From NCBI GenBank assembly GCA_026874595.1, contig CM049306.1, forward strand, positions 62,440,019 through 62,504,018: a DNA stretch of 64,000 nucleotides, in the 5' to 3' direction. The position numbers were made by a program, and so were the translations under genes. Below, piece by piece: positions 13,901 to 34,858 of this stretch (within the stretch, counting starts at the first letter, position 1; every line of letters begins with the position of its first letter). The stretch comes from Sipunculus nudus. Its lineage: Eukaryota; Annelida; Sipuncula; Golfingiida; Sipunculidae. The notes beneath the pieces are model-generated. The model did not search any database, was not told the origin of the DNA, and saw only the letters and a program-made list of their open reading frames with translations.

Positions 13901-16900
13901 TGATAAAGCTATCCTGATTGATGAAAAGTATTGCCACAAGCAAAAAAACGTAGTAATCATACTCCGCAGAACAGATTTTCTACAGATTTATGCATATATA
14001 TGCGTGTGCGTGAGGCCGTGGGCAGAAAGCGATCAGGTTTGAATGGCGAATCTTATTCCCCTCCTTAATTACGTTGATATGAGTTACACAAAAGCCATGC
14101 AATTACAACGAAATATGCTGTCTCCATGAATTTTTTTTGATAACCTGAAAATATCGCAGATGACTACAGATACCTCACCGCCAGACACATGGCATAGTGG
14201 CTCAAGCTTTCGCTCGACCGTTAACGAATGGTAGCTTATGTGATCAAGTTAACAGCGTTCTTGTATAGATTCAGGATTTCAACTTCCAGTTTGACTTTAA
14301 GTCGTTTGTAATACACCTCTTTAAAGAAAGTTGGGAAGAAACACGAACATCAAAATATTTTTGCTGAAATAATATTATTTTTTTCCAAACAATTTTTGAT
14401 TGTAATATTAGGAGAAACTTTCAGTTTCTCTTCTACTACAGTAGAAAAGAACTGTGAATATGATTAAGCAGTGTTTGCTCACAGATCCTAGGCACGTTTC
14501 CTTATACCTAATATTAATTCACTTGAGATCAGCTGGGACCTATGGAAAATAATATGGTACATTTTTTTTCGCATATAGGAATGGTATGACTATAAATTAT
14601 CATGGAGTCCACACAGTTACGGCAACATTTCCACTCTTCACGTTCCTGCAGACGAGATTTGGTTACCGGATATCGTCTTATATAACAGGTGAGGTTCTTA
14701 ATTAAATAAACAATCTTGAAATTATTGTCCCACTGAAAAGCTCACTGCAAAGCGTTTACAAATTATTACAGAAACGGCACCTAGAAGATATTTTAATATA
14801 TTTTTGGGTTCGTACTTACGGTTGTCAGTAAAGTGGCCGACACCAAATTTTTAACATGCTTTATGTTAAATACGAAACATGAATATTTTCGGCAAGTCTG
14901 TCGCTATGATTGGACCTCCATTATAACCATTTAAGATTAAATGCTATAGTGACCAGGTCTTAACCTGCCGAGGTATTAAGTCAGATGTGATGCCTTTATA
15001 TTTAAGTATGGTATTTACTCTAATCAGTAATAAATTAAATGTATCATGAAATTACATAGAAACGGTTTGCTAGCAAAAATAAAATCTTTTTTAAACGTTC
15101 GTTTTGTAAACGTTTTCTCTTCAGCGCAGATGGAAATTTTACTGTTCAGCACAAAACCAAAGCAACATTACATTCAAGTGGTCGGGTGAAATGGCGTCCA
15201 CCAGCCATATATCAAAGTCTGTGCCACATCAATGTTGAGTACTTTCCGTTTGACGTTCAGCGATGTCATCTGAAGCTGGGCTCGTGGACGTACGATGGCT
15301 TTAACGTAGACATACGACACAAGCGGATAGAGGAAGACGGTGACCATCTTAGGTGGGTGGAGAAGGGTATTGACCTTGCCGAGTATTACGGCAGTACGGA
15401 GTGGGATATTGTGGACGCACCTGCTAAAAAATACGTCTTCAAGTACCCGTGTTGCCGCGAACCTTATCCTGACATCAAGTTTTATCTAGAGATTCGGCGA
15501 AAACCTTTATTTTACACAGTTAACTTGATTTTACCATGCGTTGCAATTTGCTCAGTGACTGTTCTAGTGTTTTACATTCCTGCTAAAAGTTCTGAAAAAA
15601 TAACCATGGGCATCACAATATTAAACTCACTGACAATTTTCCTGTTACTAGTGTCCCAGATATGCCCACCTACATCAATTGCCACACCTCTTATAGGAAA
15701 ATATTTACTTTTTACCATGGTTTTGGTCACATGTTCTATTATAGTGACGGTTTTTGTCTTGAACATTCACTTCCGGTCACCGGCCACACATATCATGTCA
15801 CCGTGGGTACGGAGGCTATTTCTGCAGCTCCTTCCCAAGTTCCTCTTGATGCGGCCGCCGGAGCCTTATCATCAAGAAGGATGTTTAAAGACGATGCTGA
15901 CCAATAAAAGTGCCCAAAAGGAGAGCTTCAAAGAGGCGGACTGCTCAGACGACGACCAGGTCCATAGTCCTTCGCCAGACGGACCGCGCCGCAGAGCCAT
16001 GAGGGACAACACGCCGCTCCTCTCACAAACACATCCCACCGGTGCATGCCGGGATAGGCGAGTTCCCCCAGCGGCAGAACGCGCGATGATTGGAGTGACC
16101 TTCATCGCAGATCATTTGAGACAACAGGACGAGTTTAACAAGGTCAGTATGTACTGGACGTATGGATCTGTGAATTTAGTAGTTAATAAGGGATGTCTGA
16201 TAATTATGGTCTTTTGTGCTAGATTATTTTACACTGAAGAACATACTGATGGTCTTAACATAAATTTTAAAATTTGAACAAGCATTGATATCATATTAGA
16301 AGATTTAAAACTAGAATAGTTATTTTTGAAGATGTAGCTGCTTTAGTGATGAGTACAAGTAAGTCTCAGTTACCTGTTTCCAACAGACCTGCATGGTAAC
16401 GCTGAAAGAGGACAAGTGCCGTACCTACCTACTATTGACTATTATTTATTTTGATTGATACGAACCCCTCCTATAGATGCCTGAAATAAAATATGTCGGG
16501 ATTTTGTTTTTGCTGGAATAAAAAATTACCGGTGTTGAACTGCGTTTTGTGGAGGCGACATTATTAAACTAAGAGGCCTTTGATGACATTTGTAGAAACC
16601 GCTCTTTAATTTGTCAGATTAGATCTCATGACAATAAATTGGTTTGTCCTTCGTCAATGCGAGATGCTTACTCTGTCATAAAGCCGATCGATAACAAAAA
16701 CACAGAAATAGTTCAGCAGGAAAGGGTTAATGATGAACAACCATAAATTGTATTATAATAGTATCAACCTTTTATTTAAAGGGGATAAAATAATACTCTA
16801 TAAGTAATAGTGTTCTTCTGAGGTTAGTATGCATCACTTGGAGGTATAATATATGTCTGATCGCTTATATTTTAAAACTGCAGGCAAAGGGGGATTGGCA

Positions 16901-18267: not shown

Positions 18268-18333
18268 CTATCCCTCCCCGTCAAGATCTGTTAATCGCTC
18301 CCTCAGGAAGGCTAACGTCGCTTCTTGTGCGCT
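18268..18333 (-). CDS. Phospholipase coding exon 12 (C-terminus)
   Basis: Acceptor TTTATAG, phase 0; 21 codons (SAQEATLAFLRERLTDLDGE...) and TAG at 18270-18268. The AxxATLAFLRER pattern fits the terminal helix seen after the TTDF segment in this lipase group. Confidence 0.82.
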   Translation of the reverse strand, partial: SAQEATLAFLRERLTDLDGEG

Positions 18334-19141
18334 CTATAAACGTGAAAAATACACTGATTTATAGGTTTGTTAATGCATGTGTAAATAAGGATTTCGATCA
18401 TCATTTGACATACCAGTGCTGAATATATAATATAATTTAGTTAACTGTAAAATTGTATAATGTGAATAAGGTTAATCGCCTAGTTCGGATAACTGTGATT
18501 ATTGTTTTTTTTTTTCAAAATGTGAGCTCTCATGATGCAATGAATAAAAACTTACCTCAATCAAAAATTCTCTGTCGCCCTGTTCGAGTGCGAAGTCTGT
18601 TGTTCTGACGTAGTCAGTATGTATTCCTATTATTCTCTTTATGTCGGTTTCCTGGAATATGAAGACGGCTACATAACCAATAATCATATGGAGCTATCAG
18701 TAACAGCAAAATAAACAGATCAATAAAATCACTCAATGCCAAGTTCATTCTCATGAAAAATTACCTGACAAGTAGCATTTTTGCACTCAATGGGTATTTA
18801 CTAGATTTAGCGCCAGCCACTCATACATAGAATTCCTGATACCCCATCAATTGTAAAAAAGCATATATGCGATGGCCTATCAATATCCACAAACCTGGGG
18901 TTTGGGCGAAAATAAAATGTTTTATGATGGCACGTAATATTAATGGGTAGCGGGTAATACATCTTAATATTTCGCAAATATACGTAGATTGTATATTAAC
19001 AGCCAGAAAAAGTAAATAAATGGTAGTAAAATATGGAGGACCACATTGTACGGACTATAAAGCATTCCACCTTCGTGATGAGAAACCACTGTATACTGCC
19101 ACTGAATAAAATTTACACAACACAAAATTGTGTATGCGTGT

Positions 19142-19205
<64 letters not shown>

Positions 19206-22200
19206 GCCGGAGGGGGGGGATGAGTCAGTGGTAATTAGCATATATGGTGATGCTAAAATTTAAATGATAAAAATTTGGATTTAGATTTGATATTTTTTAG
19301 TTTTGTACTTTAGTTAATCCTCGGTGTCATGTTTGTTTGAAAATGTCCGTACATTTTTTTGGGGTACTAAAATTAAAAAAACATGACCAGCCAATTAGCA
19401 TAAAACACCAATATGTTCTTGGGTTTCAAGATTCTACTGTCCATGGTGACGAGTCTCGTTGCCAAGGGTAACTGACGTTGGTGATTGTTACCTTTATCAG
19501 AAGTCTGTCGATGGTGACCTTGACTGTGTTGTACAGGGCAGTCCCAAACGATAGAAAACTGGTGATGTCCTGTCTCCGTGGTAAACCTAGAAGGCGCTCC
19601 CGGAAGTTGATACAGCGCTCGTCCATCAGATGCATGACTTCATGATACGAGAGCTGAAAGGATTTGGGGAATTCACTTTGTGAATAACTTTGCATAGTAC
19701 TAAGAAATGTTGCTACTTTATAAGACGGACATGCATGCAGGTATATATCCAACACAGTATGTCCCACATATTTCCCTGAAATATATAGGTTAGTTTGATC
19801 TGAATAATATCATTTATACATAATTTTCCCATTTAATGAAAATCTGTGGTTGGCTTTATATTCGCGAGGCTGAAATTTCGCGATTTCTTCATTTTTAACA
19901 TTTCGCAGGGTTTTATTTTCGCGAATGCAAAACAACCTATAAAATCTAAGTACGGCAGTATTTGTTTTGATTTTAAATTTAGAATTAATCCAACAATACC
20001 AGGCTCGTTTCTGGTTCAGTCATTCAGTTTGACCGGTGTCACAATCGATATATCTCGTGTGATTACCGCGTGTTTTACAATGACTTAAGCTTATGTGCAT
20101 GGGCCAGTTTGGATACCATGCACAGATTAGGTTGTGAATATAGGTTGATTCCATAGGTATAAGAAGTAATCTGTTTGTGCAGATGAATCATTCCCTCTTG
20201 TTCATCTTAGTCAATGGGACATCTTATTCCCGTGGGATTCATATTCGCGATTATGTTACACGCGAAATTTAAACCATAGAGAATAAAAATACAACCACAG
20301 TATGTCACATTTAATTATCTGAAAATAAAAGCGGCACCAAAGACCAGTTGGATCATAAAACTGACATTTATTCTAATAAATCGGACAAGAAACATGGAGT
20401 CGAATATATAGCTCGGATATATTGCCACGGCAACCTTTTATCATTGAGACTTATACATTAAATGGTATTTTTATGGAGAAAAGGATATTTTAATGTCCGT
20501 CACCCCTCCTGTTAAATCTGGCCTTGATGTAAACCTTACTTTCCCGTCTGCACTCCGGTCCAGCATCTTGAACGTCACCTCCGGGCTCTTGTCACCACAC
20601 ACCATGTTCATCAGCTCCGCATTACCAACCTAAAACAAGGAAAGGCGACGGTCATCGTGGGGAATACTTACCCGCTATTACCACTATACCTACCATGGCC
20701 CGTGCAAGGGCTTGTCTAGCAGTCTTAACCGTTGATTGAGTCGAAACAATTTATAATATTCAGAAATAAAATATCATGCTTTTATTAAAATAACTGAATT
20801 GCCGAAATAGTTTTAACATTTGCACCAAGTTGTTGCAGAAACAGTGCCAAGGCAAAGTGTTTAATGGGAGGCAATTTCCAGAGGCAGAGTATTTTCGGGG
20901 GGGGGGGGGGGGGGGGGCGGGTATTATACAGCGAGGCCATCAATGTATTTTAGTGAATACCTTTTCTGTATCCATATGTTTAAGTCAATGTATTTCTATA
21001 CGTTTTTTTTCATGTTGCGATGCTGGCGCAAACACATTTCTTTCAAGTGCCTTAATAAAATATCTCATATCCTGGAGATGGCACTTGTGGTTAACGAATG
21101 CCAATGCTGACCCAAAGCCTAGCACACGTACAGATTTATTCAGAAAACATCGACACTTTTAAGCTAGAGTGTCACTAAAACAAAAAAAAAGGGGAGAAAC
21201 TACTGCTTTTGACACTGTATCATGTTCTAATAAGTCACAGAATGACACTAAATGCTGCAGGGCAACTTATATATTTGTAACCGACTGCCATATAAGAACA
21301 ACCAAGAATATTAAACATTCCCTGATATTGCCGACACAAGACCAGTCATTTTTGGTTGTCCAAATATTGTTTAGATCGATTCTTCAATCAGAGATGAAGT
21401 CAGACATGGGGTTGTGAAATCAAGAATCTAAGAAATAATACCCAACTTTTTCTAACGAGGCTACAAACTCCTCTTCCGTTACCATGCCGTCACGTGACTT
21501 GTTTTCTGCAGCCAGTGCTTTGGCAAACTCAAGTGCCAGCTCCCACCTCCGGTCCATGTGTTCGATCTGCTTGCTCAACGTCTCGGTTTCTGGGCCCCTT
21601 TCTCTGTCAGTAAACAGACGTTAAAACACATACATAAAACGTTATAAAAAAAGGCTTTACGGTATTGTTTATTTTCTTCGTCCATGCTACGCGGAAGGTT
21701 CCTAGGTTAGTTTTAAAGACTAAATGGAGGTTGAATTAAAAAGCAATAAAGACAAACTCTAAGACGAGAACAAATTTAAATTCCAAAAGCAAAGAAAGAG
21801 CTGAATTTTCGAATAAATAAAAGAATCTGATTAAATATTCCGAAATATTATTAAAAACGGAATGAGCTGATAACAATGTTAAATCAACGACATTTGATGG
21901 GAAAGATTTACCGAAACGGCTATTTATATAAATGTTAATTACATTGTACGTTGCCAACAGAATTCTGTATTTGCCGCATATGGAGCTGTTACCTTGCCAA
22001 TGAAGTGTCTGGTCTAGCTATAACTGTCCCTCTATAACGCTGCTTAAAATCGTGTCGCAAAATGTCACGGTCGTACGTGGAATACTAAAATAAATAAACA
22101 ATTGAGTTATTGTACACGATAAAATCACGAGACACCATGACGGGGAGTTTATACTGCCCGTAACGAGGACAGAATTAGGGTTCACGAACCCAGAGTAATG

Positions 22201-25200
22201 TTCTCACCGTGAAGTTGGTAAACACAACGACGCCTTAAATAAGGAAGAGGAGGTAACGGATGTCAGGATTATTGTGAATACGTCATAATTAGAAAAATCA
22301 AAAACTATGAATAGAAGAAAATTGTTTACAAATTTTTATTTTAATATTATATTTAAACCGGGCGTTGTTAAACTTATTATCGATCTATATTAATGATTAT
22401 ATCTTAAATTTATCTATTATAACAGCAAGTCTAGCTCTGCCTTGGACAACTAAGAAAGTATGCACTGCTAATTACGGCTGTGCAGTTTAGGTCGGGCATG
22501 CGAATATAAACGCCCATTTCCCAATATATCATTGGCATTGTGTTCTGTTACATTTCGCGCATTCATTTATGCATATCTATTGAGAGGAAAAAATTATAAT
22601 AGTACATACAATAGTACATCGGCCTTTCTTCGATGTTTAAGTTTGACATAAATTAAATGGAAAATCCTAGGAACACCATGTGAAAACGGGGTTTTCAATT
22701 AAGTCGCCAAACAACTGCTGTTCAGTTATTTTCAATGCAACAAAATGTTTGCATCTTTAGCTTATCCAAGCAGTACCAACAGGCACTCCGTCAGTTTGTG
22801 GCCTGAATCTAAAAAAATGCACCTTTTTTATATTACTACGATCTTATAATAAAAAACTTAGAATTGTATAATAAAATAGCTTGTCTACCTGAGGCGATCA
22901 GGTGAGACCCATTTTGAAGCAACAGAATAATTACTGGCTCACAATGAGATTATGAATAAACATGATAATACGAATGTCAAGGTAAGTAAATTGTCATTTT
23001 AATAGCCCCTTTGTTTCAGTGAAAGACAGTCTAGACCATCAGCACCCAGACCTCGTCCAAACTATATATAGAAACTTCCTTAGCAGACAAGACGTCAAAG
23101 TGGTTGACTTGTGATAGGAGAAGATATAAACAGGGCAACACAGGATACCTTCTTGTAGGGTCATAACTCCTATCCCCTTTGGCATGCCTCAGCCTCGTAT
23201 GGAAGCTTGCTCATATCTGAATCCATTAAGAGGTTTTATAGCGGGATTCTCTTTTTCTATTTTTTGTTTTTGTTTTGATCGTTGCATTGCCATCATCAGT
23301 TGCTGTATTCATCTGTAATTTACATAGCGGGGACCTCATATAGGTCAAGATATTAGTGATTTTATGAACACGCGTTTCTTATGTGTGCTTACATGATCGA
23401 AATTAATTCATGAGATGTGTAAATGCAAAACATGTATATTTTGATAAAAAGGGGTATACGTTGCAGGATGGTACATTATATTAGTATGCTTTCCATTATC
23501 AGCTACAGACATTGACCCATGAGCTAAAATGCATCATAAGTATGTACTATAAATTGCTCAAGTTATAAATCCATAGGATAAAAAAGTAGATAATGATCAG
23601 TTCAACGTAATCAGCTTTAAGACGCTTTGCACAATACCGCTCGCATATTTGAGGTTGGCATCATCAAACTTGGTAAATGGTATAGGCCCTAATGAACAGA
23701 ACTGATGGATGATGTGTAGTGTTCGTTGCACTATATAGCTAGCATACTCACCATAAAGCACAGCTTATCGATCACGTGGCTCTCTGCACTTACCACTAAC
23801 ATCCCTAGGGTCTTTTTATTATAGTCTTTGAAAGGCTCCTCGGCTCTGTCCAGATGTAATAAATACGAATCCTCCGGCTTCATAGACATATACCAACCTA
23901 GGGCAACAAAGGGCTGATGATATAAGCCTTGTCCTTAATTCATTCATAAAAATATGTATCCTTGTACTGTGTACCGTCTGTATCACCTACTGATGTCAGT
24001 TATTAAATCACATTTTTAAAAGTTATTTTAATCACTTGAAAAAAAACGTAAATCGGTCTGATTGACACAATAAAAACGGTTCTTTGTATTTTGAATGAGT
24101 GGTAACATACCTTACCATCAAACACGTGAATAGGAAAATTACTGAGCACTCCGCCGTCTATGTAATAATCTGGTAAACTGTCTTTGGTGTACTGAATTGG
24201 CTGGTACAGTCCTATAAGTAATAAAAGGTTTATCATGGTAATCTGTCTTGTTTTCTAATCATGCATATAATTTAAATTTGTTGATTTAGTTTAAAAAAAC
24301 GGGTCCCAAGACATTTTCAATAATAAAAGAGAAAATTTGCCAAAAAAAATTTCATGTGCAACCGGATTCGTGCTTGTTTAAGGGGCACTCACTGGTGAAC
24401 AAATTTGGAACATGCCTTAAAAAAATTCGGAATGGGGTGATTGAAAATATTCGCTATCAGTAGTGAAGCAATTTTTGCAGTTTGATACGCCTGATAAGAG
24501 CGGAATATAGGTTTTGATTCAAGGACAGGTACCATCAATCATGGACGCCAGCTGCTAAACCTTTGTGATATATCTTGTCCAACTCCGGAAACAATGTTAA
24601 TGCTGGGCATTAGGAAGACAGATAACGTTGTGCCTGGGGGTTTTCGTCCGGCCGCCCCACACAGCCAGGGTTTGTTTCAATGCATAATTTGGCCAACGGC
24701 CTGTCTTGTCAAACACTATATGTGTAGCATACATGACAAAGTGTGCCTATGTGGTGAAATTCTTTTTAACACAAAGAAAATGCCTTTGATACAAGTGCAG
24801 TATTTATAGGAACGACTCCTATGTGTGAATTTTTTTTTCATTCCTAATCCAGAACACGTCGGCTGTCGACAGATATGCATTCACCTAGGATTTTTGGGCC
24901 ACAAATCCGACAGTGCCTTCACTACAATTAGTGATTGAATCCGTAAAACAGAACAAAGAACCACGACGAGATAAATGTTGATAGACAATACAGTAAGACC
25001 TACATCTTAATTCCTTAAGGCATGTTTCTCTACACTCGATGAAGACTATGGTCAATTATTTGTATTAATTTGGAGCGGGCTTAATATAGCTGAGACCTGA
25101 AATGATGCAACCGGAACTCGTACAACACTCATGGGCCATGTTTGTTTAGAGAATGTGTGTGCGAGGAAGGGGGGGGGGGGCTAGTTCGGGTAAAATATAT

Positions 25201-28200
25201 CTCATACAAAATTTTCATAATATGAATTACATAACTGAAGTTTTATTGTGGAAAGAAAGAAAGATGTGAGGGGAAAGAATGAGCAAATTTCTCGTACAAA
25301 GGTCTTCTTACCCCCCCCCCCCCCAAAGGCATAATGAAGTGGCTTGGCTGAGACCTTTTGCTGTAAGCTTCTCCCTTGAGACATAACACAAACCGACATG
25401 TTGTTTACCCTGTTCGGTATACCCGAAATATATAACCCCAAGGTAAAACACAAACAATTAAGTGTTTCAGTTTATTTCATATGATTGGTACACAAGGGTT
25501 TATATCACCCTTACCCTAAAACAAACTCAATACAGTTTTCCATGAACAAATACCAATGGGCTAGTTGAACCAACGCAATGAAATGTTGAACCAACGCAAT
25601 GAAAACTGCTGAAATTTACCTCGAAGCTTTCGGCGCAAGCGCATATACAACGAAATACATACAAACAATTTAAGCTGCATCAATGCTCGATATACAACAG
25701 ACCACTGACATTCTTTTCCAAATGATGGCCTAAGCTAGCAAGGCATACTACTGCGTCGCCACGCGATACTAACGCGTGGGAACGAGATAATTATCGCGTG
25801 GCCACAAGATACTATCGCTTGGGAACGAGAAAGTTATCGCGTGGCCAGGAGATACTAACGCGTGGGAACGAGATAAAAAATAATTTTGTGCATGTCCTAT
25901 ACGAGCCACCGTACCGTAAAATATGATTAACAGATTCAACAGGTACATACATATTTGAATTAATAGTTCTAAGAGTAAAGAAGAAGAGGATTTTAACTAA
26001 AAGTAGTATCCCTTCTGGATCCTTATATAAATATATAATGGGGGAGTTCGTTCCACAGATGACTTCATGTCTGGGAATTAGGCATTCGTGGATCATTAAT
26101 ACTAATTGTACGATAACATTTTGTTAGTTATATGATTCTTAAATGCTTATTGTATTCATGCGTTTAACCGGTTTATTTGTTATTTAAACGTAATGCAGCT
26201 TGATTTATGCTTGAGCCAACGTGGAAGCTATAAATGTTTGAAATTACAATTAAAGCGGGAGCACATCACAACTGAGAACACTTGCGCCGGGACGTTTAGC
26301 CGGGTGTGCGGGAGCCTTGTGTCCGGGAAGGTTCACCTGAACCCAGACACTAATTTCATGTGCACCTGGCAGAACTCCAGGAGTTCACGAGAGACACGGA
26401 AAGTAAATGAATAACGTTCTTATCACCAATGTCCGGAGAACAGCTGTTATGTTATATTATCAATAACTGATGAACCTAGTGCACAATGAAAGATATATTT
26501 AGTAATATCAAAGACGACTCCATCAGGCTGAAAGTGGAAGTTCATTATGCCTTTTAGGTTCGAATTTCAGTTTAAATAACAGGTCTTGCAAATGGCATTA
26601 TGAATCTTGAGATGCTTTATTTCCATAATGATTTCTTTATAAACCATCCATTCTGCACAGTTTTTTTCTGTGTGTATAAACTTGAATGCATTCAAGTTCA
26701 ATGATATGGAATGGAATAGATCTGCATTGGATACAGGATCACAACTTGTTTGTTTGATCGGGATCTATATGCGGTGCAGGATCATAAATTATAAGTTTGA
26801 GCCTGATTTAGATGAGGTCCAGGATCACAACTTGTCAGTTTGATTCGGATCTATATGAGGTCCAAGATCACAGCTTATTAGTTAGCCCTGCCTGGGCTTT
26901 AGTATTTGCGTTTACTAATAAAATGCTTAAAATAAAACGTGATTCCATGTACCGATAGACTTAACTCAGTGCCAGTTCTTATCACTAAAGCCCTGTAAAG
27001 TCCGTATGGTGAATCCGTGATATTTGCATATTAAGGCGTCACAAGGCTCTTTGAGGACCCGACGATTCCCCCGTATTTGCATATCAGGCTGTCACGCCTC
27101 ATGTGAGTGGCATCATTGCTATGAAAACGTCAACAGTGGTCCCTCAGCTCGACCAGCTTGGTAACATTCGCACAGAAATCATGTATTCAGGTATTTCACA
27201 CATGGACCTTCGTGTCCTATGATATATCTCTGCTGAACGAATATTACGGTCCATGGGCCAAATGTAAGTGCATATTGTAAAAACTATCGCAACAATTTTG
27301 TACTGACAGGTCCAGTATAATTCCCTCTGCCCAGATTACAAGAGCAGCTGGCAAGCATTTGTCTGAACCCGTGTATTAACTGTCAATTTGCGACACGCGA
27401 AGCGTGATCGTTTCAGTCAGCCGGTACATTTTGACTGCGCTTGTCGCGTGTGCACCTGAATATCTCGTGCTGATTGGCTGAGCCAGAGTTTGATAGGCCT
27501 ACATTATATTTAAACAGGCCCACTTTCAAGAGTGGTGGTCCGATTAACGTTATCACTGAGGCTGAGGGTTATAGTGTTTTGAAATCTTAAACTCAACTTA
27601 AGCGACGGCCTAAAACTATTAAGACAAATTAAGTGGGGATATTAGTAGCCAATAGGAAGCCCGGAATAGGCGATGACTGAATGAACCATGTTGGTTTTGA
27701 AAAAAGAATCTGGGAAAGACCACTGCTGACGTCACTGAAAAAGACCTTAGTTCAGCGAGGCGGTAATGTATGGCGCTGACCGTCCGGGAACCGGCCAAGA
27801 TTACCAGTCCATGAAATCAGTGGTTCAGATAGTGGCAAATTAGTTATATGAGTTGCCGCAGGATGGCGGTACCGACACTAAGTGCGATACAACGCGGGAA
27901 CGTTTTATTTCTCCGTCAGAAGCAACAATTAAGTCATAACTATTTCATGGACTGGGCCAGTCTAGAATTAAAGGGTCACAACTTATCATTTTTTATGAAG
28001 CTGGTATTGACAGATGATTGACGGTATGGAAACTCTTGTTTTAGGCCTTAGCTGAAGCGTGCATTTTCTGACTTAAGATTAGTTTTGCTTCTAAGTGATT
28101 AAAAGTGATGCATACGTACCAGGGACAGCTGAAGACATCTGAACTGCCATGGCTATTGTCATATCTGGGGTTGTTTTAGGGTGAAAGAGCTCAAGAGACA

Positions 28201-31200
28201 TCCTGTTTACGTTGGTGGCGGTAATACAAAGCTCGGTCCCCCTGTCACGGTACAGCTGGCGGGAAGAAGGTACAGTAAGGTTAGCTGCTGATGAACAAGG
28301 GCTGTGGTCTCTATACATCCCGTATTAAAATGCGATAACTTCTTAATCGACTACAATTTCCGGGAAAAAATAGATGTATCGGAACGACACGAATGCTCCC
28401 GCCTGGAGCAATTGTTTAAATTGTTAAAGTGGTGGGGTATAAATGTAGCAAAACTGAAGGATCAAATAGTTTTATCATTGTCTCTTAATGATATTACAAT
28501 GAACATTTAATGAAGACCAATGATGATGATGATGATAAAATTCTATGATATATTCAGGAACCGTGATACTGTCATAAATAGGCCAACCGGGACGAAACGC
28601 GAACTCGATCTGTAACTGGTCATTATGCGCCCACACACCAAAAATCAGGCCAATATCTCTAAGCACTGCGAAAAAAAGTTCGTACATATATGCATTTATC
28701 ATGAAAATTTCTAATTTTCATGACATTTTCTATGTTCAGGAGCTGTCATACAGTCAAAAGTAGGTCAACCGGGACAAAATGCATATTCGATCTGTAAGTG
28801 GTCATTTTGCCCATACACACCAAAAATCAGGCCAGAATCTGCAAGCATTGCGTAAAAGTTCGCCCCGGTCAGCACATTTTCGGGGCGGCATTTCGGCTAA
28901 TTTGTATAATGAAGTGGCACGAGAAGTTCCTCAGAAAAGTCCGTAAAGATGCATTTATCATGAATATTAATATTTTTTCATAAAATGTTCTATGTTCAGC
29001 AGCCGTCATACCATCAAATGTAGGTCAACCGGGACAAAACGCGAACTCGATCCGTAACTGGTCATTATCTGCCCCCACCTAAAAAAAATCAGGCAAATAT
29101 CTGCAACCATTGCGTATGTTCGCCCCGGTCAGCACATTTTCGGGGCGGCATTTCGGGGAATTAGTATAATGAAGTGGCACGAGAAGCTCCCCAAAAAGTA
29201 CAAATTTGGCCATTTTTCAAGACTGGTGAGAAAATCTAAATGTTTGGTGTCTTTTTGGCTATGTGTCCCATTTTTAATGAATTTCAGGAATTATAAAATG
29301 GGGAGTAGAACCAACCAAATGATTTGCGAACGATCTCTATATAGGAAGGCTACGCAAGCAGAAATACAGATATGTTGTTAATCTTTATTAGATCAGCCAT
29401 CTTGCAATGTCAGAACGCCATGGATAATTTGACCAGTCGTGCAAAGCCGGAATTTCAGGGCCATCTACATTACAGAAAATCCAACCATGCATGGAGAAAC
29501 CCTGTCAGAAGAATGAATGGCCACCAGTGTTGGGACTTGGGTGTCTGTTTCACACAGTTTTTTGTTTGGAATGTATAAAGAATTTCCACTCTTGAATTCA
29601 CCTTTTATCGATGATATTTAAACAGCCTGAAACAAACTTAAATGTCCTCTTCAGTGATTTCTCAAACTCTTACAAAAGACTTTTTAAAATACAAACGTTT
29701 ACACAATCGGGAATATTTTTAGTACTATCTAAATTTCTGTGTGTTTTGATTTACCTCTGGTTTTAGAATTTAATATTAGTATGACCTGCATAATCTTTTA
29801 TGTGACGTGAATAATAACAATCTTTCACCCAGAGTTATTTTATCTTTCAGATCGCATTTCAAATATAAATCTTTCAAAAATGTCCGGCGGGATGAAGAGC
29901 CCTGGCCCCTATGCCACACGTTCAGTATACATATCAAGTATCAGCGTTACCTTTTAGACTTCAAAACTCTAATAAAAATATATTTGTCTGTACTCTTATT
30001 AACCGTTTAATGATCCACTCCCTACAGAGAATTGTTATATGTTGGGACAAATCATTCAAGTTAATGTATAATTTATAGTTTAATGATAATATTACTTAAA
30101 CTTTATTCAAATACTTTACTTATTAACAATAATCATAAGTTCATAAATAAAACCTCGCAAAGTGCAGAAACATTCTCACTAATTTTAAAATGATATTGAT
30201 GTAGCCTTGAATTTAAGCATGCTTTCAACTTTGAAGATATTGTAATTAAACAAAAAAGTCAGAGATTATCAAAACATTTTTTTTTCTGAAAAGCATTAAA
30301 CATGCCCTGCTTACAAATAACTTTATAAATTACGCGTTTTGAGTAAAGACTAAAGTATAAGTGCCTTGCTTGCTGCAGCACCATGCATACCACAGCGCTC
30401 TATTAGTTGTTGCTGCTGTCATATGCGATAACAAAAGGTGGAATTGAAGAAGTGACAGGGTATTTATGTGCGTTGAGAATTGAATAACACGCACCAAATC
30501 AAGTTTTATTCCACGTTGACTTAAAGCTTATCATAAATCGTGTTTACATGAAAAAAATAAGTAACCATATTATTTTTGTATCCTGAAGTGTAATTTTTTT
30601 CTAGTTACAATTTATTCTCTGCACTTCATGATGCATTACTTGTCTGAAGTTAGAGCGATCTTTTGATTTACAGTAGCAAAAAGATGACTGATCCATATTG
30701 TGTGGCGAAGGAATTCCCTGCTAATGAATTCATACATACACTTGCGTTGTTGTAAACGTAAAGCTTTTAATAAAGAAATTTGACGTGATATGTTTCTATA
30801 TGTTGTCAAGGTTTTGTAATGTTTTGTCAGAGGGGCGGCAATTTCTAAGACCGCCCCTGGCGGCAATGAGGCTAGGTACGCCGCTGCAAGGATTTCCTCT
30901 TTTAAGGAATACACTAACGGCGCCGTATACGGCTTCAGATGGAGAACCGCATATGCAGACAAAGAAATCTTTAATCCTCGTTCACAGCGCCATAGAAACA
31001 CTCATATTTTATCAAATTTTAGTTATTACAGCACTGTGTTCATATCTGTTACTGCACACGTGGAAAAAACTGATTCCTTGTTATATTTTCTTTTAAACAC
31101 TCAGCTGTTATTTTTATAAGGTCGCTTTGGTAAAAAAATACTCGTTATCTAAATGTCTATTTAATAATTGATGGTCTACAGAAGAATTTGACAGTAGCGT

Positions 31201-31652
31201 CACTTTCTTTCACTGATCGGTTCACATCTGAACACTCTTATTTACGTTTGTGTAAGCAACCAATAAACATATGACCTTCAGATTTTATGAGGGACTGTTC
31301 AATCCAGTGTAAAGTTACCTACATACCTGACCAAATGTATAGCCCTTCTGGCCTGTCTTCTTCTCAACCCACTCCTCGATGTAGTCATGGAGACGTTTAC
31401 CAGACAGCCAGCCGTAGTTACTGATAATGAGAGGAAACGACAGCCACATGGGCAGCCAGGAATCGGCTGAAATATCAAAATCTATTCACGTGACTAAACA
31501 AACGGTCAGGCTATGTATCTTTCTTACACTCCATTAAATTTTTTTTGACTCCTAGAATAGTTACAGACCCAGGGATCAGTTGGCATTTTTTTCAGACACT
31601 GGCATAACATAGTTGAAAAAACTGCAACCATAATGGAAGGAAGTTAAGAAAA

Positions 31653-31704
<52 letters not shown>

Positions 31705-34700
31705 TGGAACCCCACAATTACGACCACCCTGGGGACTAAGCAAAGTGGTCGTAATTTGGGGGTGGTCGTATTTGTGAAACTCTTACCATGGTCGCATATA
31801 ATGTGTATAATATTTAATGTGTATCAGAGTTTATCTATTGCATATCTTTAATGTGAAATATAACAACATTATTTACTTAGCGGAGGACCCTTATTATGAA
31901 TGGTTTTGTGTGTAGCTGAACATATCTTTTCATGATAAAAATTATTATACATGTCCACATACGTAGTGACTGATGATTAACAAATAATAACACTAAAGCA
32001 ATACGATTACAACCTACTGAATGCATATTGAACATAATACATGGCTGTCATATATTTAGCCTTCCGCTTGAGTATATATTGCGTGCACTCGAGTTTTCCC
32101 GACGCTAAACTGCTGAGCCATTTGGTGCTGACTGCGTGTTGTGTTTGCCGCCTTGATTAACGCCACTTTATCCTTCAAGGAGAGTCTTTCAGAGGCATGG
32201 TTGCCTAACAGCAAGCAAGTAAAATGCAAACTTAATCAGTAGAGAAATAAACTGACAACGATCTATCAGAAAACGCAAGTTAATGTGAGGGATTTTCCCC
32301 CATGCAAGCTTTATTTACACATTTTACTGACTGCTCAATACTCAGTGTCAATAAGGTATGAACACATTTAGGATTAACTAGGTCGTTAATTTTACCAATG
32401 AGGATCGAACAATATGTGATGAGCTGAAATATTAAGCCCGCAACCCCACACTTAGGGTAGCTGTAATACAGGTGGTCACTGAGGGGCAATTAGCATCTGA
32501 CCCCAGGTCAGACTGGCTCATTTAGTAATCAGGCCGATGGTTACCATCTTTGATCTAGAGCCAACATCTCAACGAGTCACAGCGGAGACACCGAGTCGGG
32601 AAGATATGCGGGACCAGATTAACACTCGGGTTAAGAAACCTTATTACCCGCTTTGATCTTTCGTTAAGGCGCCTGTGACAAGACGCAGCCATTGACTCGA
32701 TCATGACAAATGTTGTTTCAGTACTTCTCGGCGGTGGTCGCATTAGCGGGGTCGCATTAGCGCTGGGGCCAGGAAATCTGGTCGTAATTCTGAATTCAGG
32801 GGTGGTCGTAATTTTGAGTCATTTTTAAACATAAATAAACTAAAAACAATTCGGGACCAAGCAAAATGGTCGTAATTGTGGGGTGGTCGCAATTGTGGGG
32901 TGGTCGCAAGGCGGGGTTCCACTGTATATATATATGTTTAACTTGAAGTGTACATATATCTAGAATGATAATTTGATGGTTACTTTTCATCATCTAATCT
33001 CACCAGAGCCACAAATACAAACTTTCCACGGGTACTTCCAAGTTTTACCTCCTCGTATTCAAACTTTGAAGAACCGTTTGGTCCGATTTTCTAAGAAAAA
33101 GAGATCAGACTCATGTTGAGTTTGGTCGACTTACTTTTCATTTTTTTCATAACTTTTTATTTTGTTCTGGATACATATTCTTTGACCTACAATTTTGTTT
33201 CTAAAGGGGACCTATCTGGACCCGTAAGTATATACGTTCTTCAGGCAGTAGTTATACAGCGCAGTCCCAGATCTCCCTTTGTTTGATCCGCTGCTTTGTA
33301 TAACAAGGGTCTCTTGGTTACATCACCAGGGTTGGCCTAGATCAAAGAACTGTAATCAGACCAATGAGGATGTGGAATCACATTGTGCATCCAGCTCTGG
33401 TACAGGGCCGAGAATTGATTAATTAACCGCTTTTTGGTTGAGTGAAAAATTTTTGTTTTGCATCCCAAAACTCTAACACAGGTCCTAAAACACAAAAATG
33501 TACGTAACTTGCGGCATGTAAGTCACAGTGACTTATTTATGGTATGCAAGAAGATTTAAACAGGACGTACCTGGAAGCTATAGATTAAGAAGTTTTGGGG
33601 ATAAAGGGTAAAAATTTTTGCTCTGACAGGGAAAGATTTTGGTAAGGTTGAAAGAACTGAATGACGAAAAAGAAGGAAGTTTGCGGTCTGGAATACCAGT
33701 TATAATAAGAGAACATTCTTAATATTAGGCCTACCACGTATACGGAATGTATTATACGCCGCACGGGTAACCGACTCGGTGCCCTGTCACTGCCTGACAA
33801 CATCCCAAAGAAGCGATTTCTTCATTTCACGGTCACAGGTGTTCAGACTAGTATGTTCTGAAAAGCACTTCATAATTCATTTACCAGCCGCCAGGTTCCT
33901 TGTCAATATCACATTTTACATTTGCTCATTTTAACGTAACTGACCACCTGCGTGTCAAAGGATTGATTAATATGTTAAAAAGTCAATATGTAAAATCGAA
34001 ATCAATTGTTACTGTATTCTTTGACTTATGATAAAATATTTCCTTTCAAAGCATGTAATGTTTCGATTTTCATGGATCATTCCCCAACAAAGCCCCCCCC
34101 CCCCCCGCCTAAAGTAATGCTGGATCCGGTACTCGGAAGAATTTGGATATAACATAATATGGGTGTATTACTAAGTATGTTTGAATATGTATAAATATTG
34201 TTTCGTTTATAAATATTTTACCATAGCGCCTGCGATAAAAAGAATGAATGTCTATGGAGTTAAACGGTAACAGAAGGAAAGAGGATAACCGTAGGGTTCC
34301 CAGTTAATCGATTTATTTCAAGAATATCGCGTATAGTGTAGAGTAGGATACCTACCTTGTGCAAAATTCTCAAGGTTTATACACGTAATCTTAAAGAGGT
34401 CTCTGACGTCATAGCCCACAGCCAACAGTGCGGCAAAGATAGCGCCGCCACTTGATCCAGCAAAACGTTTGATTTTTCGAAGAATACCAACTTTTTCAAG
34501 TACCTGTATTAGATAATTGACAAGCCATCAATTTGTCTCCACTAATAAATACTCTTAGAAATCGAAATCCTTGCAGTGATCATGTAAATCTCTAAACAGG
34601 TTGTTACTTGGTAGAAAAATGTATGTTTTATAAGAAAGTGTTCATAGCGTTTTCGTGATTTTTATGTCCGGCTGCTTGTACCTTTTTGCTTACCTTTAAA

Positions 34701-34858
34701 CCACCAAGATAAGCAAAGACCTTGGCCCCTCCACCCTCCATGACTAAGTTTTCATAATCATACTCGAGGTCTCTCAGATGTTCGGGAATGTTGACAGGTT
34801 TTCTGTATAACTGATCGCAGGATACATCGTCTATTTGTTGTGACTGCCAGTTGCCCAT
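18268..34858 (-). CDS. Patatin-like phospholipase with inserted EF-hand pair (12 coding exons)
   Basis: Exons, 5' to 3': 34858-34694, 34503-34356, 31466-31327, 28255-28120, 24211-24116, 23897-23752, 22084-21993, 21603-21447, 20629-20540, 19653-19492, 18651-18556, 18333-18268. Phases agree at all eleven junctions and total 1494 bp (497 residues plus stop). Patatin lipases cleave acyl esters of membrane lipids with a Ser-Asp dyad. Seen here: GGG oxyanion loop (EGGGAKVFAYLGGL, 41-54), GSSGG with Ser73, HPKTTPDM, DGG with Asp215, GWYMSMKPEDS, and near the C-terminus RTTDFALEQGDREF. Two EF-hand loops (342-353 and 384-395) lie between the core and that C-terminal part. The start MGNWQS fits N-myristoylation. 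I infer a membrane-tethered, calcium-responsive lipase; substrate is unknown. Confidence 0.92.
18556..18651 (-). CDS. Phospholipase coding exon 11 (TTDF motif)
   Basis: Acceptor TATTCCAG, donor GAG|GTAAGT, phase 0; 32 codons. It holds GIHTDYVRTTDFALEQGDR, a conserved strand-loop of invertebrate and bacterial patatin-like proteins. Confidence 0.9.
19146..19206. repeat. (GA)n microsatellite
   Basis: GA run with one slip near 19190, in phospholipase intron 10. Confidence 0.96.
19492..19653 (-). CDS. Phospholipase coding exon 10 (end of EF-hand 2 and following helix)
   Basis: Acceptor CCTTTCAG, donor AAG|GTAACA, phase 0; 54 codons. The first residues LSYHEVMHLMDE finish the second EF-hand loop (Glu at loop position 12). 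Then comes the FRERLLGLPRRQDITSF segment and a helix ending IDRLLIK. Confidence 0.9.
19843..20281. mobile_element. Possible MITE with TTCGCG-rich ends
   Basis: The left end reads CTGTGGTTGG...ATTCGCG and the reverse complement of the right end reads CTATGGTTTAAATTTCGCG, a weak terminal inverted repeat. TTCGCG motifs cluster near both ends and not in the flanks. It lies in phospholipase intron 9 and has no coding content. Confidence 0.4.
20540..20629 (-). CDS. Phospholipase coding exon 9 (start of EF-hand 2)
   Basis: Acceptor TGTTTTAG, donor AAA|GTAAGG, phase 0; 30 codons ending MLDRSADGK, the first seven positions of an EF-hand loop. The intron splits the loop; joined with LSYHE of exon 10 it is a canonical 12-residue loop with D at 1, S at 3, D at 5, G at 6 and E at 12. 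Confidence 0.92.
20897..20917. repeat. G21 homopolymer
   Basis: Uninterrupted run of 21 G followed by CGGG, in phospholipase intron 8; can form G-quadruplexes and is prone to sequencing error. Confidence 0.95.
21447..21603 (-). CDS. Phospholipase coding exon 8 (EF-hand 1)
   Basis: Acceptor ACTGACAG; one base completes Arg308, then 52 codons. A charged helix (IEHMDRRWELALEFAKAL) leads into the EF-hand loop NKSRDGMVTEEE (342-353). The donor is uncertain: AAA|GTTGGG at 21447 or, 18 bp earlier, TTT|GTAGCC at 21465. Both keep frame. The shorter form would space the two EF loops 36 residues apart, as in calmodulin, against 42 in the longer. Confidence 0.85.
21993..22084 (-). CDS. Phospholipase coding exon 7
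   Basis: Acceptor ATTTTAG, donor CAAG|GTAACA; 30 codons plus two bases (YSTYDRDILRHDFKQRYRGT...). No motif of its own, but it is required: without it exon 6 (phase 0) cannot join exon 8 (phase 2). Many basic and acidic residues suggest a linker. Confidence 0.82.
23752..23897 (-). CDS. Phospholipase coding exon 6
   Basis: Acceptor GCCCTAG, donor ATG|GTGAGT; completes Gly229, then 48 codons starting WYMSMKPEDS and including KKTLGMLVVS. These match the block after the catalytic Asp in patatin-like proteins. An internal GTAAGT after TTAGTG (in frame) could serve as an alternative donor. Confidence 0.9.
24116..24211 (-). CDS. Phospholipase coding exon 5 (catalytic Asp)
   Basis: Acceptor ACTTATAG, donor GATG|GTAAGG; 31 codons with split Gly at both ends. 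Contains YYIDGGVLSNFPIHVF with the DGG motif (Asp215), the second member of the catalytic dyad. Confidence 0.95.
25169..25180. repeat. G12 homopolymer
   Basis: Run of 12 G in phospholipase intron 4. Confidence 0.95.
25311..25324. repeat. C14 homopolymer
   Basis: Run of 14 C in phospholipase intron 4, 130 bp from a G12 run; the two could pair. Confidence 0.95.
25750..25882. repeat. 43-bp minisatellite, three copies
   Basis: TGGGAACGAG recurs at 25777, 25820 and 25863, exactly 43 bp apart, with CGCGTGGCCA and GATACTA blocks between. CpG-rich relative to the surroundings. In phospholipase intron 4. Confidence 0.9.
26716..26888. repeat. 43-bp minisatellite, four copies
   Basis: CAGGATCA-type cores at 26734, 26777, 26820 and 26863, all 43 bp apart; units carry GATCTATATGAGGTCCAGGA-like text with mismatches. 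Unrelated in sequence to the 43-bp repeat 0.9 kb away. Confidence 0.9.
28120..28255 (-). CDS. Phospholipase coding exon 4
   Basis: Acceptor CCGCCAG, donor CCTG|GTACGT; 45 codons plus one base. Contains LCITATNVNRM, HPKTTPDMTIAMAVQMSSAVPG, the classic patatin-core block (HPKTTPDM / AVxMSxxxPG). Confidence 0.95.
28256..31326 (-). other. Phospholipase intron 3 (3.1 kb)
   Basis: Contains the three-copy repeat cluster at 28530-29210 and otherwise AT-rich unassigned sequence. A GC-rich block near 30825-30890 (GGGGCGGCAATT ... CCGCCCCTGGCGGCAAT) forms an inverted repeat and looks like a transposon fragment; the open frames over it are not convincing genes. Confidence 0.65.
28530..29210. repeat. Local cluster of three copies of an unnamed repeat
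   Basis: Three related units share TAGGTCAACCGGGACAAAA, then CGATCTGTAACTGGTCAT and CACCAAAAATCAGGCCA. The CAACCGGGAC core is at 28584, 28766 and 29026. Copies 2 and 3 also share a GC-rich tail (CGCCCCGGTCAGCACATTTT, GGGGCGGCATTTCGG, GAAGTGGCACGAGAAG) and are 260 bp apart at both marks. No coding content; probably fragments of a dispersed element. In phospholipase intron 3. Confidence 0.85.
31327..31466 (-). CDS. Phospholipase coding exon 3
   Basis: Acceptor ATTTCAG, donor CAG|GTATGT; completes Ala105, then 46 codons (DSWLPMWLSF..., NYGWLSGKRLHDYIEEWV, KKTGQKGYTFGQ). The NYG...GKRLxxxIE pattern is the patatin lid/helix region between Ser and Asp motifs. Confidence 0.93.
31655..31701. repeat. 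(TA)n microsatellite hosting a transposon
   Basis: TA run that stops at the transposon end and resumes for a few units (TATATATA) right after its other end at 32925. Confidence 0.95.
31702..32924. mobile_element. Pogo/Tigger-type DNA transposon, internally deleted (1223 bp)
   Basis: The left end begins CAGTGGAACCCCACAATTAC and the right end, reverse complemented, begins CAGTGGAACCCCGCCTTGCG; both continue with CGACCACC. A TA lies on each side, the target-site duplication of the Tc1/mariner-pogo superfamily. Subterminal GGTGGTCGTAATT motifs repeat near both ends. The right end has extra copies of a 17-bp GGTCGCAATTGTGGGGT unit. Length is well under an autonomous pogo element, and only an N-terminal transposase remnant is seen, so it is non-autonomous. 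It lies in phospholipase intron 2. Confidence 0.88.
32056..32205 (-). pseudogene. Pogo transposase N-terminal HTH remnant
   Basis: A minus-strand frame reads GNHASERLSLKDKVALIKAA, TTRSQHQMAQQFSVGKTRV, then a stop at 32058-32056. This is the CENP-B-N / psq-type helix-turn-helix of pogo transposases (LSLxxKVxxIKAA...xxAxxFxVGKTxV). No initiator Met lies close upstream and the downstream CENPB-HTH and DDE catalytic domain are missing, so it is a relic of the element that surrounds it. Confidence 0.75.
34093..34106. repeat. C14 homopolymer
   Basis: Run of 14 C in phospholipase intron 2. Confidence 0.95.
34356..34503 (-). CDS. Phospholipase coding exon 2 (nucleophile Ser)
   Basis: Acceptor AATACAG, donor CAAG|GTAGGT; 49 codons plus one base. 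Contains LEKVGILRKIKRFAGSSGGA and the following helix AIFAALLAVGYDVRDL; Ser73 in G-S-S-G-G is the nucleophile elbow. Confidence 0.95.
34694..34858 (-). CDS. Phospholipase coding exon 1 (myristoylation-type start, oxyanion loop)
   Basis: 55 codons from ATG at 34858 to AAG|GTAAGC. It begins MGNWQSQQ: Gly2 and Ser6 fit the N-myristoyltransferase consensus. It ends with LVMEGGGAKVFAYLGGLK, the oxyanion-hole glycine loop and first helix. The frame continues upstream to other Met codons (34906), but a plausible acceptor (TTTCATCCAG|GAATC, exon border 34863) sits 5 bases before this ATG, which favours this start and suggests a 5' UTR exon further upstream. Confidence 0.88.

Follow-up and report, generated by a model that had tools for sequence, protein, structure and literature searches.

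A patatin-like lipase gene with an EF-hand pair placed inside the lipase fold lies on the minus strand of a 64,000-nt stretch of the Sipunculus nudus genome (GCA_026874595.1, CM049306.1, positions 62,440,019 to 62,504,018, forward strand; the window). The gene runs from an ATG at 34858 to a stop at 18268 and encodes 483 residues in 12 exons (Table 1). Exon positions, first read off the DNA, were then fixed with a spliced protein-to-DNA aligner and a translation check; this upheld the twelve exons proposed in an earlier note on this DNA and gave a protein slightly shorter than its 491/497 residues. The GGG, GSSGG and DGG motifs, both EF loops and the RTTDFALEQGD segment were recovered, on recomputing their coordinates, where that note had placed them. 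Exon 7, between the patatin part and the EF part, was located by the spliced aligner with intronless paralogs as guide and ends in an RPxTxLA motif, as in the paralogs. A short exon at 32262-32232 in the first splicing run was rejected as an aligner artefact, and exon 3 was placed at 31466-31327 instead.

The protein is recognizably a patatin. Pfam PF01734 matches residues 38-227 with 105 bits (cut-off 27.7), the GGG oxyanion loop and the G-x-S-x-G and D-G-[GA] dyad motifs are present, and the predicted model has the patatin fold. The same model contains a paired EF helix-loop-helix fold. Its residues ~30 to ~480 match patatin structures and its residues 312-389 match calmodulin lobes (VIA-align), and the match to VipD extends to residue 483.

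That the EF-hand pair sits inside the fold, rather than beside it, is shown by relatives that lack it. Four EF-less bacterial patatins (L070, L071, L072 and L075) can be aligned with the family as far as the strand TLGF, and then once more starting at the helix before R-T; between these two aligned blocks, EF-bearing members have ~125 extra residues (273-399 in the window protein). The earlier note had also assigned RTTDFALEQGD to the lipase domain, and this is borne out by the [TA]-[DE]-F that all seven aligned EF-less relatives (L070-L076) carry at the RTTDF position. The model of an EF-less relative, in which the middle helix is poorly predicted, has the same closing element order and no insert.

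Table 1. Coordinates of the lipase gene, its motifs and other features in the window
Feature	Position	Strand	Remark
Exon 1	34858-34694	-	165 bp coding
Exon 2	34503-34356	-	148 bp coding
Exon 3	31466-31327	-	140 bp coding
Exon 4	28255-28120	-	136 bp coding
Exon 5	24211-24116	-	96 bp coding
Exon 6	23897-23794	-	104 bp coding
Exon 7	22084-21993	-	92 bp coding
Exon 8	21603-21447	-	157 bp coding; weak donor after it (GTTGGG)
Exon 9	20629-20540	-	90 bp coding
Exon 10	19653-19492	-	162 bp coding
Exon 11	18651-18556	-	96 bp coding
Exon 12	18333-18268	-	66 bp coding
N-terminus MGNWQS codons	34841..34858	-	possible N-myristoylation signal
GGG oxyanion-hole motif, residues 42-44	34727..34735	-	invariant in alignments A1 and A2
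GSSGG nucleophile elbow, residues 71-75 (Ser73)	34444..34458	-	motif position recomputed
DGG, residues 215-217	24150..24158	-	predicted catalytic Asp215; motif position recomputed
Inserted region, residues ~273-399	19585..22057	-	exons 7-10 with introns; absent from EF-less bacterial relatives
EF-hand loop 1, NKSRDGMVTEEE, residues 328-339	21468..21503	-	helix-loop-helix in predicted model
EF-hand loop 2, DRSADGKLSYHE, residues 370-381	20540..20560 + 19639..19653	-	intron splits the loop
Loop 2, first half, DRSADGK, residues 370-376	20540..20560	-
Loop 2, second half, LSYHE, residues 377-381	19639..19653	-
RTTDFALEQGD, residues 446-456	18574..18606	-	C-terminal part, belongs to the patatin fold
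Tandem repeat, ~260 bp, two copies	28673-29199		within intron 3 of the lipase gene
Satellite array, 61-bp unit	35042-64000		~475 copies, 96% match; right 45% of the window, up to its edge
Nicotinic acetylcholine receptor subunit, large open exon	15060-16274	+	best PDB match alpha-4, 4.5e-86

The EF-hand pair is conserved beyond this gene. In 20,000 shuffles of the window insert, two relaxed EF loops never occurred together and one occurred in 19. The same order of elements is found in intron-bearing and intronless paralogs and in bacteria, and this conservation, together with the shuffles, excludes a chance resemblance. All resolved members keep a constant order (patatin motifs, EF loop 1, loop 2, [IV]HTDY and an xDF element), and loop 2 starts 42 residues after loop 1 in each of them. 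Among the 15 EF-bearing rows tested, animal and bacterial, 14 have a loop 2 that fits the strict EF pattern.

The window gene belongs to an expanded family in its own genome, where a search with one paralog as query returned 82 matches. The assembly totals 1.43 Gb, and the window's contig is longer than 100 Mb. Multi-exon relatives comprise nine C5 loci (C5a, b, c, d, e, g, hi, j and k), C2 and C1, the last being the window copy; C5f, at 39.87 Mb, adds a partial locus, and matches of one exon each occur on C3, C5 (1.58 Mb) and C7. C5b, C5c, C5d, C5j and C5hi yielded models with twelve exons; within the fetched stretches C5a has no last exon and C5k no first exon. Paralog exon lengths (159-168, 148, 137, 136, 96-99, 104, 92, 157, 90, 162 and 96, with a short last exon) are close to those of the window gene. 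Exceptions are one zero-length aligner exon in C5c, the last two sizes in C5d (moved by four bases), exon 1 of C5j (123, the alignment starting inside the exon) and the first piece of C5k (154). Models of C5a-C5d were steered by a profile with the window exon 3 one base short, and those of C5hi, C5e, C5g, C5k, C5j and C2 by the corrected profile. Short extra introns placed by the aligner in C5e, C5f and C2 were dismissed as not biological. The C5e, C5f, C2 and C5g models were not cleanly assembled, and alignments, trees and rate counts were made without them; these loci contributed just three N-termini (C5e, C5g and C2) and one set of EF loops (C5g), read by eye.

An M-G start followed by small residues is the rule for an N-myristoylation signal. 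All 13 animal starts found read MG[NSG]xxS, which includes MGGCKS in C5j (start chosen by eye); no start was found for C5k, and the aligner profile began with MGN, so that the choice of starts leans that way. The animal N-termini are thus possible N-myristoylation signals, judging from these residues.

Contig C8 carries five intronless EF-hand patatin copies (L009-L014) in two clusters, at 44.84-44.85 Mb and 46.65-46.66 Mb. Three are intact (478 aa), one has two stops and one a frame break; they look like a retrocopy that was duplicated afterwards. The intact copies are under purifying selection. Across the C8 copies and the C5c/C5d pair, the ratio of nonsynonymous to synonymous rates (dN/dS) is 0.19-0.31 for the patatin part, 0.26-0.32 for the insert and 0.23-0.70 for the C-terminal part, on which constraint is weaker. 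Two other loci, L001 and L004 on assembly contigs C113 and C138, hold a patatin and neighbouring genes that look bacterial by eye and are probably contaminant or symbiont DNA.

Outside the animal, one locus (L059) emerged when bacterial genomes were scanned with alignment A1; it lies in a metagenome-assembled genome of Proteobacteria bacterium isolate Deltapro3. Its single open frame is matched over residues 1-472, EF loops included, with 34% identity in the best segment, and its G+C content is ~70%. Among 377 genomes of the same phylum we found at least four full-length members, in G001 (the L059 genome), G308, G318 and G324, a lower bound given that at most four candidates were scored per genome; the other matches listed covered the patatin part or short pieces. 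Searching the class to which G308 belongs (71 genomes, E <= 1e-40) returned the same four, which suggests that the design is rare there. The other three bacterial proteins are 56-69% identical to the G308 protein. Bacterial EF-hand patatins are intronless, with G+C of 0.61-0.71, and beside them lie open frames that resemble, by eye, a metallo-beta-lactamase (MBL)-fold hydrolase, a YkgJ-type protein, an ABC-F ATPase and an EF-G-like GTPase.

The immediate flanks of the bacterial genes were again judged by eye. In L059 the EF-hand patatin gene is followed directly by the MBL-fold-like hydrolase. At L067 and L069, which represent two of the four genomes, the EF-hand patatin gene has beside it a leucine-rich-repeat-like protein that is similar in both. 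Giant viruses and plasmids were considered as sources and rejected. Viral contigs gave no relative with alignment A1 and two matches with A4, both to the patatin part only, and none of the 11 plasmid matches to the G308 protein covers 80% of the query; phage records and eukaryote collections lay outside these searches.

In a tree of 17 rows, animal (100/99), bacterial EF-bearing (98/97) and EF-less (99/98) sequences are each split off by one branch. With the insert removed and the long branches L074 and L076 omitted, the EF-bearing members still group at 98/95. One insertion event is the simplest reading of these sequences, not a proved one. Taken together, sequence and predicted model establish the gene with its motifs, the insertion, its conservation and the family, and confirm the observation as real: a conserved EF-hand patatin family is common to an animal and a few bacteria.

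How might such an enzyme work? We put at roughly 60% the reading that it is a patatin acyl hydrolase of the cytosol, probably anchored by a myristoyl group, in which calcium at loop 2 of the nested EF-hand pair moves the C-terminal helices. Catalysis, calcium binding, myristoylation and their coupling we infer from sequence. The Ser73-Asp215 dyad would carry out catalysis. The EF pair is set into the part of this fold that leads from the strand following Asp215 to the closing helix-strand-helix at the C-terminus. Calcium binding, mainly at loop 2, would change the shape of this calmodulin-type pair. Because the two ends of the pair are tied into the lipase fold, the C-terminal helices packing on it would shift, altering how readily the active site is reached or how the enzyme meets the membrane, where the myristoyl group would hold it. 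The presence of this design throughout an animal family and in a few bacteria suggests that the lipases respond to calcium, and calcium control, as the earlier note proposed, is likely.

Several observations weigh against this calcium-switched lipase. Of the 15 rows, 3 have a loop 1 that follows the strict EF pattern and 10 have one that fits a relaxed version, and the first position of this loop, usually Asp, is N in the window copy, C5b and C5hi, S in C5g (by eye) and E in the four bacteria. C5g, which lies outside the 15 rows, has a loop 1 that looks degenerate by eye, and loop 2 of C5k breaks the strict pattern at position 9. Loop 1 is accordingly a poor predicted calcium site in the window copy and the four bacteria, and the sequence supports just one good predicted site, loop 2. 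The earlier note had proposed a profile check for Patatin plus EF-hand; the patatin half stands clear of its Pfam cut-off, but the EF-hands of the window protein alone fall short in all four EF families that match it (23.2 vs 25.4, 23.8 vs 30, 22.9 vs 25 and 16.4 vs 25.9). Paralog L009 passes three of five (EF-hand_1, 41.4 vs 25.4; EF-hand_6, 34.7 vs 25; EF-hand_5, 29.5 vs 25.9) and stays below for EF-hand_7 (29.1 vs 30) and EF-hand_8 (19.1 vs 28). The model, built from nine sequences, has a mean predicted local distance difference test (pLDDT) value of 74.9, with block values of 56-69 in the helix just after the insert (409-426). The grouping of EF-bearing members on the core alone is unsupported (48/10) when L074 and L076 are included, and two close pairs have dN/dS values as high as 0.70 and 0.61 for the C-terminal part. 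The replaced Asp at loop 1 leaves room for another role of the pair, as a structural or protein-docking module that holds calcium permanently or hardly binds it, in a lipase as calcium-independent as other patatins. Bacteria are without most of the calcium signalling known from animals, which also counts for such a module, but a strict loop 2 in 14 of 15 rows exceeds what purely structural needs would demand. We regard this alternative as doubtful, yet as one to be taken seriously.

Other points concern the window copy in particular. Its branch is longer than that of any other animal member in the three trees (0.94, 0.73 and 0.78). Its insert has diverged further than its patatin part, with dN of 0.77 and 0.42 against C5c and 0.74 and 0.44 against C5j (dS saturated in both), compared with 0.35 and 0.33 between C5a and C5b. 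The 61-bp satellite starts 184 bp upstream of its ATG, which makes its expression uncertain. With the weak donor after exon 8, these features could mark a decaying or specialised member that has mostly lost its control within a family that is otherwise calcium-controlled. This seems improbable: the copy retains Ser, Asp and its two EF loops, and the 12 exons stay open across 483 codons, unlike the outcome of long neutral drift. The same weak donor and the 16.6-kb span of the exons might instead suggest that exons of two adjacent genes were merged, and the earlier note had asked whether exons 8-10 come from a different gene. For the family this is refuted by the uninterrupted frame in which intronless paralogs and the one-ORF bacterial homologs share the same order, and we consider such an artefact extremely unlikely. 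Equally hard to credit is that the family is animal-only, with eukaryote contamination accounting for the bacterial copies; one of the records does come from a metagenome-assembled genome, but the copies are intronless, have a G+C of 0.61-0.71 and bacterial-looking neighbours, and come from four genomes of one class with proteins of the similarity given above.

An Rfam scan of the window returned no match. The receptor exon at 15060-16274 (+), next to the lipase gene, marks the host as an animal. Molluscan haemocyanin, tried as a phylum marker, had no match in this genome, nor did its control match anywhere, so that this negative carries no weight; a myosin query did give matches.

A nested calcium switch in a patatin would differ from the known systems to which the gene is closest. 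By sequence its nearest relatives are bacterial patatins: VpdC in NCBIfam, and VipD and ExoU among the best 60 of 301 PDB matches. The VpdC profile (NF043045) scores 96.7 bits against a cut-off of 1000, and the lipase profile NF041079 of the cyclic-oligonucleotide-based anti-phage signalling system (CBASS) 23.5 bits against 200; phospholipase effectors in PADLOC match the patatin part at 4.1e-10 to 4.6e-5. VipD, ExoU and VpdC are effectors that bacteria secrete, and the domains added to them are of other kinds (see also their entry titles), whereas this gene belongs to the animal itself, has introns and carries an EF-hand insert. CapV and CapE of CBASS, which bind cyclic nucleotides according to their entry titles, and PlpD are also among the closest known systems. 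Group IV cytosolic phospholipase A2 (PLA2) responds to calcium through a C2 domain. Neither this domain nor ankyrin or cyclic nucleotide monophosphate (cNMP) domains gave a Pfam match in the window protein at an E limit of 10, where the HMMER filters drop most matches above ~0.1. Compared with an ordinary calmodulin-type EF-hand pair, the one here is inserted inside an enzyme fold and has a weak loop 1. For group VI (iPLA2/PNPLA), a survey covering flatworms and molluscs gives three architectures, namely patatin with ankyrin repeats, patatin with cNMP domains, and patatin by itself, and the term EF-hand is absent from its main text (PMC11811501); in the window protein neither of these extra domains was matched and an EF-hand pair is built in. 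In the part of PMC10470789 covered, EF-hand is mentioned solely for a PI-PLC. A patatin and EF-hand fusion is not described in the open-access titles and abstract openings listed, with InterPro and eukaryote sequence databases outside that search, and the fusion may stand unremarked in domain surveys.

For the history of the proposed calcium-switched EF-hand patatin, we offer a tentative scenario, less assured than the enzyme's proposed working. The design may have had a single origin in one bacterial class, followed by horizontal transfer to (or from) the animal lineage. There it would have gained introns and a myristoyl anchor and expanded to ~11 intron-bearing genes plus intronless copies, forming a calcium-gated membrane lipase system outside the iPLA2/cPLA2/sPLA2 scheme. 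The patchy spread, one animal against one bacterial class, poses a concrete question of gene transfer.

Patatins are textbook calcium-independent phospholipases. If the reading proposed here is true, this family would have a built-in calcium switch that is absent from the usual phospholipase A2 classes, in an EF-hand pair kept by an expanded animal gene family and a handful of bacteria.

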